This document shows positions 31,499-42,457 of a DNA stretch of 64,000 bases, piece after piece. The notes beneath the pieces are model-generated. The model was not told where the DNA came from and did not search any database. It was given only the letters and a program-made list of their open reading frames with translations. The stretch spans positions 1 through 64,000 of the forward strand of contig CALSUG010000004.1 in assembly GCA_943789475.1 (NCBI GenBank), in the 5' to 3' direction. How positions within the stretch are numbered: position 1 is the first letter of the stretch; each line of letters begins with the position of its first letter. Position numbers and translations under genes: made by a program. Source of the DNA: an uncultured Alphaproteobacteria bacterium. GTDB lineage: Bacteria > Pseudomonadota > Alphaproteobacteria > Micavibrionales > UBA1664.

Positions 31499-33764
31499 TT
31501 ATTCTTCGTCTTCTAACAAATCCATAAGGTCTGAAAAATCATCACTGCTTTTGTGTACTGGAATGTAGAGGGTGAATGTTGAACCTTTTCCTTCAATACT
31601 ATCAACGGTAATGGCACCGCCCCATGAACGGATAATACCGTGAACAACAGATAGGCCAAGTCCTGTACCTGCGCCAACATCTTTTGTTGTAAATAACGGG
31701 TCGAATATTTTTTTCTAAATTTTCAGAAGAAATTCCAGATCCATTGTCCTTCACAGAAATGGTAGCAAAATCGGCGGCAATAACATTCAATTTGGTGCGG
31801 TCGGCATTACTCAAAACTTTTTTGTCTAAAGATATCTCAATAAGCCCTGAATTTTCACCTAAAGCATGCTCTGCATTACGGCACATATTTGTGAAAATTT
31901 GTTTCATCTCCGTACTGTTGATCATGGCTTCTATGTTTAAAACATCTTTGTCGGATGGTGTGTTTAACACAAGTTCTGTTTTGGCTTGAAGGAGGCTTTG
32001 AATAAAGTGAGTTGCCTCAGATAGTTCTTGAAACAAAGCAACCTTTTTTAAATCATCTGTTCCTTTTCTTGAAAATGTTAAAATGCCTTGTACAATTTCT
32101 TTTGCTTGGTTGGCGTAATCAACAATCATATCTAATTGTTCATGTGCGAACGGGTCGCATTCTTCTTTTAATTCATCCTCCAAAATATCTTTTGCCATGG
32201 ACATGGGCATAAGAAGATTATTAATTTCGTGTGCAACGGATGCAGCAAGAGATCCCAACGATTCATTACGTTGGCGTAATACTTCTTGTTTTTCGTATTC
32301 AATAGAGCTGGTCAAATCGTTAAACGTGATGATGTAATGATTAATGATGTTTTCATTATCTTCAATGGTAATGGGGCTAAGGGTTACATTATTCCAAAAA
32401 TGTGTTCCATTCACATGGTAACTTAACATTTTTAAATTCGCTTTTTTTCCTTCGTTAATTGTGTAATCAATTTTATCTAAGTCACTCATTGATGTTTGAG
32501 GACCTGTGAAAACATTCATGTTTTTTTGACGTAGAGATTGAGGGGAATGCCCTGTGAGATCGCAAAATGCTTGACTGGCATACCTGAAATTACGTGAAGG
32601 GTGTGATAGATCAATGATTCCGAATGCTATATTGCAGGCCTCAATACCATTAATAAAAATATTTTTTTCTATTTCTGCTTCTTTTCGAGATGTTATGTCT
32701 TCAATGGACCCAATCATACGATAAGCTGTATTACAATCTTTCCACATGGCTTGACCGATAACGTGAGCCCAAATGTAGTGTCCATTTTTATGTTTTAATC
32801 GTACTTCATGTTCAAAACGAATTTTTGTTTCTTTACCGTTGTTAATGTGATCTTGGAAATTTGTTTTAAAATTATTTCTATCTTCTTCGTGAATCATTTC
32901 ATAAAATTCACCGAGACTTATATAATTATCCTCATTATATGTGATGCCCATTATTTCTTGTAAAATATTATTCCAAACGAAATATTCGATATTAAGATCC
33001 AGATCCCATATACCTGTGCTTGTTCCTTCTAGGGCTAACTTTAATCGCTTTCTTTCTGTTGCGTGAATGAGGCGCTCTTGTTTTAAAACGTTAGAAGAAT
33101 GATGAAGTTTTTTATGAAGTGGAAGGAATGAAGCGGCAATAATTGCGAAAATCGCAATAAAAAATAATATGATGAGAACAAGTTTTATAAGTTTGTTTGT
33201 TTTATTCTCGCTGATGATAAATTTTTTATACTCATCAATCGCACCAGAGGCGACATCTAATGCCTCATTTTCTATGAGTGTTTGTAAGTTATCAATGTCA
33301 AGTATTATACCATCAGGTAGAGGTGTTTCTGTTTTGTTGTTTTGAAAAAAAGCGGCAATTCTATTGGCTATATCAACGGTGTTATTAATGTGTTGGAGGC
33401 GAGTTAATCCGCTCTCGTCTTTTTCATGGTAATAATTGTGTGTGCTTTCTTTTAATTTTTCATGTGTATCGTAAAATGTGCGAATGATGAATTCGTTTTG
33501 AAAAATTTTAGAAACAGTAATGTTAAAATTATTTTTGTATTCTACAACATTAGCGTGTTTGGGAGGGTTTTTTATGAGTGCTCCTAAATAAGATAATCTT
33601 TGCGCAAGAAATCGTTGTTCTGAAATAGTATCCGAAATACGTGATGTTTCTATAATACGGTTGTCTAAGTTGTAACTAATGAAGATGGCTGAAAGTAAAA
33701 GAACAAAAAGCAGGCTAACGCATATTGTTAATCTTTTTATAAATTCTGTGCTTTTAAATATCAT
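31499..33764 (-). CDS. Membrane PAS-PAS sensor histidine kinase (frame broken near 3' end)
   Basis: About 754 residues after correction. N-terminal membrane segment (residues 10-30), extracytoplasmic helical sensor (30-190), second membrane segment (about 193-215). First PAS (about 240-365, [17 protein letters not shown]). Second PAS (370-495) is LOV-like, with [10 protein letters not shown] and [14 protein letters not shown], but the photoactive Cys position reads KNMNVF. The NtrB-like HisKA is [12 protein letters not shown]; the ATPase has the N box CRNAEHAL and NGSGIS. A surplus base in the seven-A run 31709-31715 derails the frame. Removing it gives [20 protein letters not shown] and a stop at 31499-31501. 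An acidic tail ends the protein. No response regulator is adjacent. Confidence 0.87.
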
Positions 33765-35762: not shown

Positions 35763-36809
35763 TTAAAATCTACGACTAATTGATATTGCGCCAAAAACTG
35801 ACGTATCATCCTGTGTCTTAAATTCTTTGGAACGTCTAACCAGAGTGTAGGACAGGCGGGTTTGACCATAGGTGAAATCGACACCCGCGTTTATATCATA
35901 AACAAGTGGTTTCTTGTCGACAGATGGAGAGTTTTCAAATGTGTTTCCATCAAGAAAAATATTTCGTCCGACTGCGCGCCCGTTTAGGCCACCAAAAATA
36001 GACCAACTGAACTCATTTGCAGGTTTTGGAAAGTATCCAGTTCCCGGCATTGCTGGCCGCACGCGCAGGGGCATATCGGAAAATCGTTCTGTTTTTGGTG
36101 AAATACGAAGATTCAATCCCGCCTCGGCATGGGTGTAAATATTACCAAGGCTTAGTCCAATTTGGGGTGAGGCTTGTAACCACAGATCATTATTAATATC
36201 CCATGTCTTATATTCAGGCCATCGGCGTTGCCATGACAGGTTTAATCCGATTTCATTATCCAATTGATGTTTCCATCCTTTTGGTTCTGGCGAGTTACTA
36301 ATTTTATCATGAACATATTTTTGTGTTTGTTCGCCTAGTGCGGCAGGACCAACAATGCCGAGCGCCATTTCAATTTCATCAACGTGATTATCGGTAATGG
36401 TTATAAGGCCAGTTGAACCATAAAGCCATGCGGCCCATGGACGATCATTTTTTTGCTCGGTGGCAATTCTTATATCACTGGGGGTGTAGAGATTTTGTCC
36501 GATGGAAAATGTAACGGATGTTGTGTCGTTAATGCGAAACCCAGGATAAAGTTCGCCAATATTGCTGATCCATGACGGTGGAATTGCACCAGCTTCGAAC
36601 CAACTTAGTCGAATGCCATTGGTGTAATGTTGATCTGTTCCGTTACCAAATAGATCATTTTCAACGGCCAATGTTAAAAACGATGGATCAAGTTCGTTTG
36701 CGTGGTTTGATATTGCTTCATCTTCTAAAGATGGGGATTGCGAAAATGCTGAATCAGGTACACTGATGCAATATAAAACTATTACAAGGATTGCTAATGT
36801 CTTCTTCAT
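35763..36809 (-). CDS. Lipid A deacylase LpxR family outer-membrane protein
   Basis: A 348-residue predicted outer-membrane beta-barrel (DUF2219/LpxR), an esterase family that removes 3'-acyloxyacyl chains from lipid A. Signal peptide MKKTLAILVIVLYCISVPDS. The characteristic N-terminal block LTLAVENDLFGNGTDQHYTNGIRLSW contains the conserved Asn/Asp/His/Tyr active-site and calcium residues. GQNLYTPSDI and DRPWAAWLYGS follow, and the last strand ends with FGAISISRRF (terminal aromatic). ATG at 36809 starts the signal peptide; 36827 is a longer in-frame option. Its start overlaps the divergent ctlX start. Confidence 0.88.
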   Translation of the reverse strand: MKKTLAILVIVLYCISVPDSAFSQSPSLEDEAISNHANELDPSFLTLAVENDLFGNGTDQHYTNGIRLSWFEAGAIPPSWISNIGELYPGFRINDTTSVTFSIGQNLYTPSDIRIATEQKNDRPWAAWLYGSTGLITITDNHVDEIEMALGIVGPAALGEQTQKYVHDKISNSPEPKGWKHQLDNEIGLNLSWQRRWPEYKTWDINNDLWLQASPQIGLSLGNIYTHAEAGLNLRISPKTERFSDMPLRVRPAMPGTGYFPKPANEFSWSIFGGLNGRAVGRNIFLDGNTFENSPSVDKKPLVYDINAGVDFTYGQTRLSYTLVRRSKEFKTQDDTSVFGAISISRRF

Positions 36810-37702
36810 CGGTTTCTCAAACAACACGTCATTTATTTATGGTTGAACCTGCCGGATTTTATTTTAATCATTCAACGGCTCCGTCTAATCCATACCAAAT
36901 TAATGATGATGAGGATAGAGATGTTATTTTAACTAAAGCGGTGTCTGAATTTCGAGAATTTGTGAATATTCTGATTGAAAATGGTGTGCATGTCACGGTT
37001 GCAAAAGGGCATGCAGAATGTCCAGATCATATTTTTCCAAATTGGTTTTCTGTGCATGAAGATCGCAAAATGGTGATTTATCCAATGTTGACGGAAAATC
37101 GTGCTGCGGAAAAAACACCAGCCATGATTGAAACATTGTCACGTCATTATGATGTTTTGATGGATTGGTCACATTATGAGGCGGAGAATAAATGTTTGGA
37201 GGGGGTAAGTTCTCTCATTTTGGATCGTGTAAATCGCAAAGCCTATGGAACTTTTTCTGCGCGAACTGACCGTGAGTTAGCGCCAAAGTGGTGTGCGGAT
37301 ATGGGGTATGAACCATTTTTATTTGAAACGGCGTCCCATACGGGAGATCCTGTGTATCATAGTGATGTGATGATGCATATTGGAACGGATTTCGTGGGTA
37401 TTTGTGCCGATTCTATTACATTGGAATATCGTGGAAAGGTAATGGATAGTCTGCGTAAAACACATGATATTATTGAACTTGATATGGATCAGGTGCGCGC
37501 GTTCGCAGGAAATGCTTTGGAGGTTAAGGGGCAGGGTGATAAGCCAATGATTATTATGTCTCAATCAGGATATGATAGTTTGACCGATGTGCAACGCGAT
37601 CATTATCTGCGTCATGTTGATCGCTTTATTACGCCGAATTTGTCAACGGTGCAACATTATGGTGGTGGTGCCGCACGTTGTATGTTGCAAGAGTTGTTTT
37701 AA
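36797..37702 (+). CDS. ctlX: Arginine-deiminase-fold protein CtlX
   Basis: A 301-residue member of the guanidino-group-modifying fold (amidinotransferase/arginine deiminase). The close pattern is CtlX, described as a citrulline-utilisation hydrolase. Motifs are FMVEPAGFYFNHSTAPSNPY, PNWFSVHEDRKMVIYPM (Asn/Asp side), LEGVSSLILDRVNRKAYG (Glu-Gly), YHSDVMMHIGTDF (catalytic His) and GGGAARCMLQELF, with the C-terminal Cys as expected nucleophile. ATG at 36797 has AAGGA 6 bases upstream. The start lies within the divergent LpxR gene. It ends 1 base before the convergent flbT-flaF gene. Confidence 0.88.
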   Translation: MSSSSVSQTTRHLFMVEPAGFYFNHSTAPSNPYQINDDEDRDVILTKAVSEFREFVNILIENGVHVTVAKGHAECPDHIFPNWFSVHEDRKMVIYPMLTENRAAEKTPAMIETLSRHYDVLMDWSHYEAENKCLEGVSSLILDRVNRKAYGTFSARTDRELAPKWCADMGYEPFLFETASHTGDPVYHSDVMMHIGTDFVGICADSITLEYRGKVMDSLRKTHDIIELDMDQVRAFAGNALEVKGQGDKPMIIMSQSGYDSLTDVQRDHYLRHVDRFITPNLSTVQHYGGGAARCMLQELF

Positions 37703-37703
37703 G

Positions 37704-38447
37704 TTAGCTTGATAATAATGCCGTGGCGGTGGCGCGGTTGATGTCGATCAAGGATTGTATCTTGTTTTTATCTTTGTTTTTGATGATATCTGTTGATGAT
37801 GAATATATGAATTGATATAAATTTACGATGTTATTCAATAAATTAAATTGATCTGTTGATTTTTTTGGTGAAGTTTTGTCATCGTTAACACCATCAAAAA
37901 ATGCCATCCATAATTTACGATTATAGGAAATGGTGTTTTCAATATCGTCAATATTTAAAGCGTCCCAATTGTTTTGAACATCTACTAATTGATCTGCTGC
38001 TTGATTAAGGAGTTGTGCTTCCATCTTATTTCTGTTTGACGGCTCTTTTGGGTTAAGCGTAGATGGCGCTTCACCGCTTTCTTCGCAATTTATTAAATCT
38101 TGAATAAGTTTTAGGGCTTTGTAATATGTGCCTTGAATAATATGTGCGCTGACCTGATTAAAGAAAATTTCAACGTGAGGTGCTATATCAACTATTGATT
38201 TTAATTGACTGAAATAATTGCTGAATTCATTCATGGCATCAGAGCCCGGAGCCAAATAAATATTTTGAATGATGAGGTATAATTTTTTTGCAGGTGTATT
38301 TGCATCCGCGTCATTCATTGTATCTTTTTCACGCAAAATTGGTGCATCGCCTTCGATACGAAGGCGAGTTTTTTGTTTGTCATTTGTGATCAGAGTGTTT
38401 CCGACCAAAACTTTTTCATGTGGTTTAAGATCAATTAATAGAGCCAT
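37704..38447 (-). CDS. flbT-flaF: FlbT-FlaF fusion, flagellin regulator
   Basis: A 247-residue single frame joining two proteins that are normally separate. Residues 1-125 are FlbT-like: LKPHEKVLVGNTLITND, RLRIEGDAPILREKDTMND, PAKKLYLIIQNIYLAPG and GTYYKALKLIQDLINCEE. Residues 140-247 are FlaF-like: LLNQAADQLVDVQNNWD, ISYNRKLWMAFFDGV, NLLNNIVNLYQFIYS and LIDINRATATALL. In Caulobacter FlbT blocks flagellin mRNA translation and FlaF promotes flagellin secretion, so the fusion ties the two opposing functions together. It is the last gene of the leftward flgI-flgJ-flgN-fliK group. No flagellin gene is in the window. Confidence 0.82.
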   Translation of the reverse strand: MALLIDLKPHEKVLVGNTLITNDKQKTRLRIEGDAPILREKDTMNDADANTPAKKLYLIIQNIYLAPGSDAMNEFSNYFSQLKSIVDIAPHVEIFFNQVSAHIIQGTYYKALKLIQDLINCEESGEAPSTLNPKEPSNRNKMEAQLLNQAADQLVDVQNNWDALNIDDIENTISYNRKLWMAFFDGVNDDKTSPKKSTDQFNLLNNIVNLYQFIYSSSTDIIKNKDKNKIQSLIDINRATATALLSS

Positions 38448-38474
38448 GGCAATACTATGCCATGGTCATTATGG

Positions 38475-39941
38475 CTAGACAAGCATGTTGACGTGTTTTT
38501 GACCTGTTTCGGGATCGATAATAACACTCATTTCACTTTCAAGAATATGAAGATCGCCTTCAACCATATCGGATTGTGAATTATTTCGTCCGTTACTATT
38601 CCCGTTATTTGCATGATCACCCGCGTTATTGTCTTGAGATAGACTAAAACTTAGATCGTTTTGGCTCATGCTTTCAAAACCGGCATCTTGCATAGCCTTG
38701 ATAAGAGTATTCATGTCCTTTTGAAGCATGGCAAGTGTTTCTGGTTTATCGACAACGATGACAGTTTTGACCTTGCCAGAGTCTAGGAAATCCATTTCGA
38801 TATCCAAACGTCCCATTTCTGGTGGATCAAGTTGTAGGCGGTAACGATCGCTCTCTCCCGCTTTTCCTGTTTGTGCAAATTTGGTTAAAGACATTGCAAC
38901 GGTTTGTGTTGCAGGATGTGATTGTGTCGCGGATGCGTTGTTTAGTAGGGCGTTTGTTGCTTGTGTAATTGTTTTAAAGCTGGCCTCAAATGGGATAACA
39001 GATTCGCCATCTGTTAAAAATTCAGAACCACTTCCACCAGGGATAATGGCATTAAATGATTCTGCATTAAACGGAATATTATTATTGGTATTACCCGATA
39101 CGTGCGCATGAACACGATCCGCGATGGATTGGTAGTCAGATTTAATGCCTGTAGTTGTGTTATTTAACACGTTATCGGATACAGATTTTAATTCTGGTGA
39201 CGCATCTTGTTCTGATTTTGTCATGAATGGGTTAAGCCCACGTGATGCTTCGGGAGTGTTTTGAAGTGCGATCGTAGCAGTTTCAGGTTTTTGTGCCGTT
39301 TGAACAGGTGTTTTTAAGATAGTAGATTGTGTTTCCAATGACACAACGACCAACTCTTCTTCATTTTTAGGTTTAATATCTTTTGTAATAATGTCAGATA
39401 CAATTTCATCTGTAATATCGGTTGGCTTGAAGTTCAATTGTTCAACATTGCTTTGTTTTTGTATTACCAAAGATTGTAACGCGCTTATAACGGTTTCTAT
39501 ATCCGTTGTTTCATCAATGCTGTTAAATTGATTGATAATGTTTGTCAGTTCAATTTTTAGTTCTGGATCTTGTAAAATCGTGACAAGTTCTGTGTCGCTA
39601 AATGTTGCAGTTAATTTTTGTATTATTTGATCAGAGGCACCTTGTTGTGCAAGCCCTAAAACAATAAGGTTTGATTGCGCACTATCATTGGCACCATTTT
39701 GGGCAATAAACTGCCAAATGGATGATGGTGATGATGTTTCACCGCTCAATTCAGCTGTCAATTGAGTGCCTTGTGCTTGGCCGTTAATAATATTCGATTG
39801 TGCCCCAGATAAAATTGTCTGAAAATTACCTGCATTTTGGGATGCATCACCATTGATGTTTTGCCCTGCACGTAATGTTGAGGGTGGTTGCGTTCCGGCA
39901 ATAAGAGCCATAAATTGTGCGACGGATGATGTTGTGCTCAT
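38475..39941 (-). CDS. fliK: Flagellar hook-length control protein FliK
   Basis: A 488-residue protein that gauges hook length and switches export specificity. The long N-terminal two-thirds is Gln/Asn/Thr/Ser-rich and probably disordered. The C-terminal Flg_hook domain (about 350-430) has YRLQLDPPEMGRLDIEMDFL then VKTVIVVDKPETLAMLQKDM and LIKAMQDAGF. The tail is Asn-rich (NAGDHANNGNSNGRNNSQ). It sits between the flgN-like gene and flbT-flaF in one orientation, 27 bases before the latter. The frame is intact, unlike the second FliK-like gene at 27.4 kb. Confidence 0.9.
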   Translation of the reverse strand: MSTTSSVAQFMALIAGTQPPSTLRAGQNINGDASQNAGNFQTILSGAQSNIINGQAQGTQLTAELSGETSSPSSIWQFIAQNGANDSAQSNLIVLGLAQQGASDQIIQKLTATFSDTELVTILQDPELKIELTNIINQFNSIDETTDIETVISALQSLVIQKQSNVEQLNFKPTDITDEIVSDIITKDIKPKNEEELVVVSLETQSTILKTPVQTAQKPETATIALQNTPEASRGLNPFMTKSEQDASPELKSVSDNVLNNTTTGIKSDYQSIADRVHAHVSGNTNNNIPFNAESFNAIIPGGSGSEFLTDGESVIPFEASFKTITQATNALLNNASATQSHPATQTVAMSLTKFAQTGKAGESDRYRLQLDPPEMGRLDIEMDFLDSGKVKTVIVVDKPETLAMLQKDMNTLIKAMQDAGFESMSQNDLSFSLSQDNNAGDHANNGNSNGRNNSQSDMVEGDLHILESEMSVIIDPETGQKHVNMLV

Positions 39942-39975: not shown

Positions 39976-40437
39976 TTAATACGTTTCATTCAGTTTTGAC
40001 GGTGTGGAAAAAGGTTGAGAGCTTTTCTGAACAAATTGTCCGCGCGCATCGTAATTCACGTTTTCTTGTGCGACCGCCTGACGTGCTTTTTCCAAAATTC
40101 TGGTTAAAAGGCGTGTTGCAGCTTTTTTTCCTGTCGTAATAGCAATTGCATTTTCTTTTAATGTGTCATCAAAATCCTGAATAACATTTTTTAAATATGA
40201 TTTAATACTAGGATCGGTCATATCAATATCCTTTGTACTTTCAGACAGTTCTGAATGAAGAGATTGATAACGTAATAATAATGATTTTTTTTCTTTTAAG
40301 TGAGATGCGGATGCCTTTTTATCATGAGCGCGTAATGCTTCTGTCTCGGCTTGAATACAGGCTATTAATTCTTTTAACATTTGTTCAATGCGTAAGGCAA
40401 CGTCAGCGCCCTTTGTGTTTAAATCGCTATTGTTCAT
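39976..40437 (-). CDS. FlgN-like flagellar export chaperone
   Basis: A 153-residue helical protein with FlgN features: a long N-terminal helix pair (LRIEQMLKELIACIQAETEA, LKEKKSLLLRYQSLHSEL) and a C-terminal segment KARQAVAQENVNYDARGQF, where the Tyr-x-Ala/Pro-x-Gly ending is common in FlgN homologues. FlgN keeps hook-associated proteins FlgK/FlgL export-competent. It lies 3 bases after flgJ in the leftward flagellar operon and before fliK. Family assignment is by pattern and context. Confidence 0.7.
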   Translation of the reverse strand: MNNSDLNTKGADVALRIEQMLKELIACIQAETEALRAHDKKASASHLKEKKSLLLRYQSLHSELSESTKDIDMTDPSIKSYLKNVIQDFDDTLKENAIAITTGKKAATRLLTRILEKARQAVAQENVNYDARGQFVQKSSQPFSTPSKLNETY

Positions 40438-40440
40438 GTT

Positions 40441-40800
40441 TTATAATCCTCCTGCTTGTTGATTTGATTGCATTTCAATCATTTCGGCCATCACACTATC
40501 GCTTAGGCCAATGCCACCATTTTTGGACATCATTTTTCCGTATTCATCTACCATCATTGATCTGAAAATATCTTCTGCATTTCCGCCACCAAACATGCCG
40601 TCTGTTTTGATACCCTCGAACATGTGCGTTAACATTTGTGAAATAAAGACAGCTTCAAAGTCTTGTGCCGCAGCTTTAGTTTTATCTAAGGCACCCTGGT
40701 CAAGGTTTCTTTGTAGTGTTTTGGAAGCATTATTTAATTTGCCACCGTGAACGGTATTCATACTTTGGTTAATTGTATTTTGGACGAGCGCGTTATTCAT
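40441..40800 (-). CDS. flgJ: Flagellar rod-binding protein FlgJ (N-terminal domain only)
   Basis: A 119-residue rod-scaffold protein: AAAQDFEAVFISQMLTHMFE, GGGNAEDIFRSMMVDEYGKMM and GGIGLSDSVMAEMIEMQ match the FlgJ rod-binding domain. The muramidase domain of enterobacterial FlgJ is absent, as is usual in alphaproteobacteria. The start overlaps the flgI stop by one base (TAATG), giving tight translational coupling. It acts in the periplasm as a cap for rod assembly. Confidence 0.93.
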   Translation of the reverse strand: MNNALVQNTINQSMNTVHGGKLNNASKTLQRNLDQGALDKTKAAAQDFEAVFISQMLTHMFEGIKTDGMFGGGNAEDIFRSMMVDEYGKMMSKNGGIGLSDSVMAEMIEMQSNQQAGGL

Positions 40801-41930
40801 TACATAACCTCAATTTCTGCCTGCATGGCACCGGCGGCCTTGATAGCTTGTAAAATTGTAATAACATCACGTGGTGCAATACCAAGCGCGTTTAATGATG
40901 TTACAAGATCTTGTAATGTGATGCCTTCTTGTAGAATTGCCATTTCTGCTTTTCCACTTTCGTTCACCGCGATATTTGTCCGAGGAACCACAGTTGTTTC
41001 ACCATTTTCCGAAAAGGCATTTGGCTGACTAACTTGAGGTTCCTCGGTAATTTTGACGGTTAAATCACCCTGTGCAACTGCAACAGTGCTGATTTTAACG
41101 TCCTTCCCCATGACAATAACGCCGGAGCGTTCATCAATAACTATTTTTGCTGGTTGATCTGGCAAAATTTCTAATTGTTCTAAATCTGTAATTAATTCAA
41201 CAATTGATTGTTTTGTGTATTCACCTGTTTTTGTGATGCGAACGCTTGCTGGATTTTCTGCAACGGCAGAACCTTGCCCAAAACGTGCGTTAATACGTTG
41301 TGCAACACGACGTGCAGTCGTAAAATCAGGATTCCGTAATGAAAGGCGAATAATATTTAAGTCTGCTAAATTAAACTCAATTTCTTTTTCAACGATTGCA
41401 CCATTTGGGATGCGTGCCGCGGTTGGAATGTTTGTTGTAACTGACCCTGCCTGACCTTCGGCGGAGATAGAAGATGTAATAACACCACCTTGTGCCATGG
41501 CATAAACATTACTGTCCGCACCCATTAACGGAGTAACTAATAACGTTCCACCTTGTAGTGACGATGAATCACCCATTGTGGAGATACTTACATCAATACG
41601 TGATCCTTGATTTTTAAACGGAGGTAGGGTAGCCGTAACCATAACCGCGGCGATATTTCCTGTATTCAAATTTTGACCACGGATATTTACGCCTAAGCGT
41701 TCTAGCATGGCTGTTAAGGATTGTTCGGTGAATGGTGAGTTTCCTAAAGAATCACCCGTTCCATTTAAACCAACGACCAATCCATATCCGATTAACATGT
41801 TGTCACGAACGCCCTCTATATCAACAATATCCTTGATACGTGAGGTCGCAGCATTGGCGACAAGAATGTTTCCGGCCATTACTAACCAGAGGAAAAGTGA
41901 TATAAAGACTAGGCGTTTGTTACTTACCAT
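40800..41930 (-). CDS. flgI: Flagellar P-ring protein FlgI
   Basis: A 376-residue periplasmic protein forming the peptidoglycan-level ring round the flagellar rod. Signal peptide (residues 1-28, RLVFISLFLWLVMAGNILVANA). Family blocks are IKDIVDIEGVRDNMLIGYGLVVGLNGTGDS (in part), TEQSLTAMLERLGVN, NIAAVMVTATLPPF, RIDVSISTMGDSSSLQGGTL and VVVPRTNIAV towards the C-terminus, ending with DVITILQAIKAAGAMQAEIEVM, all normal. First gene of the leftward operon flgI-flgJ-flgN-fliK-flbT/flaF and divergent from fliX with 77 bases between starts, an arrangement seen in Caulobacter. Confidence 0.97.
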   Translation of the reverse strand: MVSNKRLVFISLFLWLVMAGNILVANAATSRIKDIVDIEGVRDNMLIGYGLVVGLNGTGDSLGNSPFTEQSLTAMLERLGVNIRGQNLNTGNIAAVMVTATLPPFKNQGSRIDVSISTMGDSSSLQGGTLLVTPLMGADSNVYAMAQGGVITSSISAEGQAGSVTTNIPTAARIPNGAIVEKEIEFNLADLNIIRLSLRNPDFTTARRVAQRINARFGQGSAVAENPASVRITKTGEYTKQSIVELITDLEQLEILPDQPAKIVIDERSGVIVMGKDVKISTVAVAQGDLTVKITEEPQVSQPNAFSENGETTVVPRTNIAVNESGKAEMAILQEGITLQDLVTSLNALGIAPRDVITILQAIKAAGAMQAEIEVM

Positions 41931-42007: not shown

Positions 42008-42457
42008 ATGAAAATTGATGGACCAAAATCTTCTTCGGAAATTTCAAAGAAAAAAGAAGCAAAGAAAACCTCCTCAGGTGATGGCGCTTTTGGCGCGATG
42101 CTAGGTGGTGATGATACGTCGAGTGTTAGCGATAGTGCGGGGATGTCTATGTCATCAAATATAGCAGGTGTTGATGCGTTATTAATGGCACAAGCCGCGG
42201 ACGATCCATTACAGGGTAAGGCCAAGCGTCAAATGAAAGAGCGTGCCAGTTCTATACTGGATAAATTGAATGATTTGAAAGTCGCGATGGTAAGTGGAAA
42301 GGTAACAATTGGTCATATGATTTCTATTGCGGATGTTGTTGCATCACATCGCGAAACAATAACTGATCCTGAATTGAGTGCAATTTTAGATGAAATTGAT
42401 TTGCGGGCTCATGTAGAGCTTGCAAAATTAGAAGTCGCGAAAACTAAAACGTATTAA
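42008..42457 (+). CDS. fliX: Flagellar assembly regulator FliX
   Basis: A 149-residue trans-acting factor that in Caulobacter links early flagellar assembly to the transcription activator FlbD. Ser/Lys/Gly-rich N-terminus (PKSSSEISKKKEAKKTSSG) and a helical C-terminal half KRQMKERASSILDKLNDLKV, ending LSAILDEIDLRAHVELAKLE, which is the FliX hallmark. It is divergent from flgI. No flbD is visible in the window, so the sigma-54 partner would lie elsewhere. Confidence 0.88.
   Translation: MKIDGPKSSSEISKKKEAKKTSSGDGAFGAMLGGDDTSSVSDSAGMSMSSNIAGVDALLMAQAADDPLQGKAKRQMKERASSILDKLNDLKVAMVSGKVTIGHMISIADVVASHRETITDPELSAILDEIDLRAHVELAKLEVAKTKTY

Follow-up and report, generated by a model that had tools for sequence, protein, structure and literature searches.

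A FlbT-FlaF fusion restricted, among the Micavibrionales surveyed, to a genus in which flagellin and its chaperone have been exchanged

Among the closest described systems is the control of flagellin synthesis in Caulobacter. There, FlbT is a translational repressor that acts with the flagellin FljJ, and FlaF is a secretion chaperone whose action relieves the repression exerted by FlbT (PMC7591256, PMC9812332). According to PMC7591256, which cites Ardissone (2020) on these points, FlaF binds all six flagellins, FlbT binds FljJ only, and FlbT together with FljJ represses translation until FljJ has been secreted. FlbT stays at a constant level, and the peak of FlaF comes late (PMC3930126). In Brucella, FlbT has been proposed to be an activator, and the mechanism of FlbT was listed as unresolved in a 2015 review (PMC4347634). 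An earlier note on the DNA studied here started from the premise that FlbT and FlaF have opposite effects in model alphaproteobacteria. This is a simplification, in view of the repression by FlbT and FljJ and its relief by FlaF in Caulobacter (PMC7591256, PMC9812332) and of the activator proposed for Brucella (PMC4347634). The FlbT, FlaF and FliS families are already known; in the open-access literature searched, no report was found of a FlbT-FlaF fusion, of an erosion of FlaF linked to FliS or of a mutual exclusion of FlaF and FliS.

The window, by which we mean the whole analysed stretch of 64,000 nucleotides, belongs to a genome of the order Micavibrionales (G000) and carries a single gene that comprises both domains:

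37704..38447, minus strand: flbT-flaF fusion gene, 247 amino acids (ATG at 38447-38445, stop at 37704-37706)
38076..38447, minus strand: FlbT half, residues 1-124 (Pfam PF07378, 1.2e-32; AlphaFold2 model of the fusion)
38034..38075, minus strand: linker, residues 125-138 (identity between species 7-29%)
37707..38033, minus strand: FlaF half, residues 139-247 (Pfam PF07309, E 4.4e-15)
38022..38024, minus strand: ATG of Met142, without a Shine-Dalgarno sequence; an ATG is likewise placed in the three other fused species

The earlier note had described a near-complete FlbT pattern followed by that of FlaF in one intact frame, and this was confirmed by the Pfam matches and by the complete lack of internal stop codons in the 247-residue frame; its coordinates were right, and the strand, which it had left unstated, is the minus strand. 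When the two halves were searched separately against Pfam, each matched its own family alone. The FlbT domain is full (residues 3-123; 112.9 bits versus a cut-off of 27; profile positions 1-122 of 125), whereas the FlaF domain (residues 137-244; 56.1 bits versus a cut-off of 23.6; profile positions 13-113) misses the first 12 or so profile positions. Scores below the NCBIfam equivalog cut-offs, namely 120.1 of 153 bits (NF009432) and 82 of 125 bits (NF001995) for the FlbT half and 59.2 of 91 bits (NF009435) for the FlaF half, indicate that both halves are divergent family members, and the missed FlbT cut-off weakens a claim of functional equivalence, not that of domain membership. The FlbT half keeps the N-terminal pattern of its family, IDLKP.EK...LREKD, and the FlaF half keeps the core motifs YNRKLW, NIVNL (NI.NL) and LIDIN. 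No FlbT or FlaF match was obtained elsewhere in the 1.97-Mb assembly (97% complete), and the fusion is the sole copy of both. Modelling of the fusion with AlphaFold2 (pLDDT 91, pTM 0.68, lowest confidence around residues 131-140) predicts a beta-structured N-terminus followed by four helices for the FlbT half and helices at residues 139-159, 166-192, 198-224 and 227-246 for the FlaF half; at this pTM it is unsure how the two halves are placed relative to each other.

The fusion resembles Caulobacter FlbT (PF07378), the post-transcriptional regulator of flagellin mRNA, in its whole domain, its conserved N-terminus and its location in a flagellar operon, but differs from it in a C-terminus that continues into FlaF, in a score below the NCBI equivalog cut-off and in the loss of the adjacent flagellin gene. 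With FlaF (PF07309), the flagellin secretion chaperone of alphaproteobacteria, it shares the helical core with its conserved motifs; unlike FlaF, this part of the protein lacks both its own start codon and its own ribosome-binding site, as well as the NPYAxAAGAYG segment and the C-terminal tail.

In an order survey of 142 Micavibrionales genomes, both domains occurred in a single open frame only in the genus of the window. A first scan of genome contigs with the single fusion protein gave no matches; an alignment-based scan did find relatives. The survey of relatives that the earlier note had proposed revealed the fused frame, an open frame of 253 amino acids in G000, in G117 (257 amino acids) and G118 (261 amino acids) as well as in G115, where a contig break falls within the linker, the two contig ends have exactly 101 bases in common and the frame runs on. 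Thus, all four genus members that retain the locus have the fusion; in a fifth member (66% complete) neither a FlbT nor a FlaF domain was detected, and in the sister genera, represented in the family by three genomes (G119-G121), flbT and flaF are separate genes. A FlbT tree unites the fused species in a single long-branched clade (SH-aLRT 100). Between the window and G117, differences at codon positions 1/2/3 amount to 0.31/0.17/0.56 for the FlbT half and to 0.34/0.28/0.55 for the FlaF half, which indicates purifying selection on both; the linker is unconserved among the fused species. The FlbT-FlaF fusion is a stable architecture throughout the genus.

Since separate flbT and flaF genes overlap in the +1 frame, a single wrong base would suffice to fuse them, and a false indel introduced by sequencing or assembly had to be considered. 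However, the fusion is common to four species at about 50% identity, and the start codon, the Shine-Dalgarno sequence and the N-terminal motif of flaF have been lost outright, not just shifted. The three further species with the fused frame rule out that a stop or start was overlooked in a single assembly, and we regard an artefact as practically inconceivable.

The relative frame is +1 in 63 of 71 separate flbT/flaF pairs, so that one indel could fuse the two genes. In the pairs inspected, the ATG of flaF usually precedes the stop of flbT by a few to about 40 bases, and the Shine-Dalgarno sequence of flaF lies inside flbT (median -6.0 kcal/mol); the overlapping genes of the sister genera are probably translationally coupled. 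In the fusion, the linker occupies the place taken in separate relatives by the flbT C-terminus, the flaF Shine-Dalgarno sequence and start and the FlaF N-terminal motif. The flaF Shine-Dalgarno sequence is lost in the fused species, with energies at Met142 of 0.2, 0.7, -0.6 and -1.3 kcal/mol in the four of them versus the median of -6.0. Also, all fused species lack the N-terminal motif NPYAxAAGAYG, although the N-terminal A, A and Y are near-invariant across 56 separate FlaF relatives, and the C-terminal tail of FlaF is missing. The fusion step is old and committed, and internal re-initiation at Met142 is unlikely. As the frame has kept no internal start preceded by a Shine-Dalgarno sequence, one chain per FlbT/FlaF pair is to be expected, in line with the fixed 1:1 stoichiometry envisaged in the earlier note.

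Among the matches listed for a class sample of 385 alphaproteobacterial genomes, both domains were present in one frame only in G000 and in G465, a member of another alphaproteobacterial order, and a widespread occurrence of the fusion was rejected. Like the fusion of the window, the run-on frame of G465 (L154:6201-7154, minus strand, 318 amino acids) unites a FlbT and a FlaF domain, but in it the flaF ATG, its Shine-Dalgarno sequence (-5.6 kcal/mol), the FlaF N-terminal motif and an adjoining flagellin gene are all retained. Of the 17 genomes of its family, G465 alone has such a frame, which is a second, independent event; G465 may still make separate FlaF. A third candidate, the 794-residue open frame that includes FlbT in G185, was discarded because it resembles a spurious upstream extension in high-GC DNA.

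The flagellin genes of the fused genus differ from those of its relatives. In most Micavibrionales, including the sister genera, a long divergent flagellin of about 550-600 amino acids is encoded just upstream of flbT, and the arrangement [long flagellin]-flbT-flaF is thus shared by the sister genera with most of the order Micavibrionales. The flagellin beside flbT-flaF of the sister genera has about 570-590 amino acids, and FliS is absent from them. A profile of the flbT-linked flagellins gave no match in any of the five genomes of the fused genus, versus matches of about 1e-40 in the sisters. The sole filament flagellin of the fused genus has 277 amino acids and is encoded on a separate contig in the order fliC-fliD-fliS, with fliC of G000 at L176:11446-12279 and fliS at L176:14120-14629; the other flagellin-like match in this genus is probably FlgL.

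These data bear on the suggestion of the earlier note that, through covalent linkage, mRNA control hands over directly to secretion. Under such a scheme, each half would go on performing its classical task, both on one flagellin and at 1:1, control by FlbT being followed by FlaF-mediated export, and this would be in agreement with two recognisable domains under purifying selection, with the retention of YNRKLW and NI.NL in the FlaF core and with one chain devoid of an internal start. However, FliS adjoins the sole filament flagellin, the genus no longer has the flagellin formerly linked to flbT-flaF, and both the N-terminal motif and the C-terminal tail are missing from the FlaF half. Furthermore, the split described for Caulobacter in PMC7591256, with FlbT binding FljJ only and FlaF binding all flagellins, is impossible in a one-flagellin genome, which has no FljJ, and a single FlbT-FlaF chain makes a separate timing of FlbT and FlaF as in Caulobacter impossible. 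The proposed hand-over is not sustained by these findings and we judge it unlikely; that the fusion is a regulator in remodelled form is more likely than that it is a new device for handing flagellin to the export machine.

FliS was found in 27 of 135 Micavibrionales, among them G000, G117 and G118 and none of the sisters. Within the FlbT-containing Micavibrionales, FlaF was absent, scored below 75 bits or was fused in 20 of 26 genomes with FliS versus 7 of 93 without it (p 5e-12), and in the class sample of 385 genomes FlaF occurred in 139, FliS in 81 and both in 9 versus 29 expected (p 2.6e-8), both p-values counting related genomes. Six genomes with FliS retain a normal FlaF. The association clusters by genus and the FlbT tree leaves one well-supported independent pair, so that at the level of the order it is not significant after correction for descent.

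An alternative view is that FlbT does the work and that a fading FlaF core merely stabilises the FlbT fold or awaits loss. The FliS-containing genera g37 and g39 keep flbT, together with a degenerate flagellin-like gene of about 270 codons, and mostly lack FlaF, which implies a role of FlbT that is independent of FlaF; FlaF scores are also low in genera g40 and g42, and among the fused species the FlaF half has diverged faster (42-53% identity) than the FlbT half (60-66%). Against such a relic speak the intact frame and the strongly conserved FlaF motifs, which the four fused species all keep although they are only about 50-57% identical, and the conservation of second codon positions in the FlaF half, and we consider it doubtful.

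In FliS-containing genera without FlaF, degenerate flagellin-like genes of about 265-280 codons lie directly upstream of flbT (L171:3481-4275, minus strand; L172:2370-3194, plus strand; L173:1718-2542, plus strand) and possibly encode FljJ-like regulatory flagellins. In two FliS-containing genera, proteins with GxxGxDxxxG-like repeats are encoded next to the flagellin genes of the fliC-fliD-fliS cassette, at L176:8761-11169 (plus strand, 802 amino acids) and at L180:4599-7314 (plus strand, 437 and 422 amino acids).

FliS (Pfam PF02561) is the canonical flagellin export chaperone, and in it the flagellin-binding groove is covered, or framed, by the N-terminal segment. The AlphaFold2 model of a separate FlaF from a sister genus (pLDDT 85) has a bundle of four helices and, at the N-terminus, a further short helix, and its best match in a Foldseek search of the PDB was the FliS chaperone 5xef, with seven more FliS structures among the top 30; probabilities were close to 1 and TM scores about 0.5-0.6 by query, at weak E values of 0.05-0.5 and for a four-helix bundle, which is a common fold. 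Profile alignment of FlaF and FliS with hhalign, running from the motif NPY..AA.AYG onward, gave a probability of 69% and an E value of 4.5e-5. By sequence, FlaF did not match the FliS chains of the PDB, and neither the fusion nor FlaF nor FlbT found convincing relatives there. A CsrA-like N-terminus of FlbT, suggested by eye, was dropped at an hhalign probability of 3.5%, with no CsrA among the PDB matches. Homology of FlaF and FliS is likely, though short of proof with such weak fold E values and so common a bundle, and separate FlaF shares the N-terminal NPY..A...AYG with FliS. The FlaF half of the fusion model also matches FliS (TMt 0.77) but without the N-terminal segment, and FliS is encoded by its own gene beside fliC and fliD in the same genome; a fold search with the whole fusion returned mostly unspecific helical matches, FliS among them.

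We tentatively favour, at somewhat less than even confidence, the reading that the fusion is a genus-specific remodelled FlbT regulator in which a lidless FlaF core has been kept as a flagellin-responsive arm in cis. The fliC-fliD-fliS cassette would have come first and the fusion later: once FliS had taken over flagellin export, FlaF would have been freed from its duty as a chaperone, an indel in the flbT/flaF overlap may have joined both frames, and the helical core of FlaF may have persisted since it now acted in cis on FlbT. As a FliS-like bundle without a lid, this core could bind unsecreted flagellin or a FliS-flagellin complex, and its flagellin-bound state would set whether the FlbT half represses or releases flagellin mRNA, the target being the new fliC mRNA. 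Sensing by the FlaF core would stand in for the FlbT-linked flagellin that was lost, comparable to the binding of FljJ to FlbT for repression in Caulobacter, and expression of the fusion would probably be tied to translation of fliK. Co-repression by FljJ and FlbT offers the analogy of a regulator of flagellin translation whose state is set by a flagellin and its secretion; unlike in Caulobacter, a second regulatory flagellin was not found in the fused genus, and sensing would need the sole FliC. A bolder formulation, possible but less readily accepted, is that FlaF is a distant alphaproteobacterial homologue of FliS which has repeatedly been displaced by fliC-fliD-fliS and was captured here by FlbT as a covalent flagellin sensor in a one-chain switch. 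The occurrence of the fusion, in the Micavibrionales, only where flagellin and chaperone have been swapped separates a regulatory from an export role, and the near-exclusion of FlaF and FliS in the Alphaproteobacteria can be put as a testable proposition, namely that the two proteins are chaperones of one kind and alternatives to each other. The locus bears on the sensing of flagellin by FlbT and on the relationship between FlaF and FliS.

The fusion belongs to a run of flagellar genes, with fliX as a divergent neighbour:

38444..38465, minus strand: predicted RNA hairpin over the fusion start codon, 8-bp stem CCAUGGCA/UGCCAUGG
38475..39941, minus strand: fliK, hook-length control (Pfam PF02120, 9.5e-12), directly upstream of the fusion
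39976..40437, minus strand: FlgN-like small gene in the gene run of the fusion, named by position only, no Pfam match
40441..40800, minus strand: flgJ-type rod-binding protein (Pfam PF10135, 2.8e-14)
40800..41930, minus strand: flgI, P-ring protein (Pfam PF02119, 5e-136)
42008..42457, plus strand: fliX, class II flagellar assembly regulator (Pfam PF10768, 1.5e-33)

The fliK stop lies 27 nt ahead of the fusion start. In all four fused species, G115, G117 and G118 included, fliK is directly upstream at a spacing of about 30-50 nt, a placement that none of the examined relatives with separate genes shows. The start of the fusion itself has no Shine-Dalgarno sequence and, together with the hairpin predicted after the fliK stop, this suggests that the fusion is coupled to fliK translation. 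Comparable hairpins were predicted in the three other fused species, with z-scores of -2.5 for the window and of -0.35, -1.0 and -4.4 for the others, and in view of this uneven support across species the hairpin is suggestive only. The same features, fliK directly upstream in the fused species alone and a start without a Shine-Dalgarno sequence under a hairpin just past the fliK stop, would also suit a fusion that serves the switch from hook to filament and controls or chaperones a non-filament client such as FliK, FlgL or FlgK instead of flagellin. Any such client is purely putative, however, the hairpin z-scores are uneven, and other FliS-containing genera also have long FliK-like genes close to flbT, at a distance of one more gene upstream, which makes this explanation improbable.

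Two further observations concern the surroundings of the fusion. A gene of the eukaryotic-type dimethylarginine dimethylaminohydrolase (DDAH) family (window 36791-37702) is convergent with the fusion, its end lying one base from the fusion stop. At 31602-33764 of the window, a 720-residue frame encodes a PAS-containing histidine kinase whose C-terminal end reads out of frame, suggesting a frameshift.
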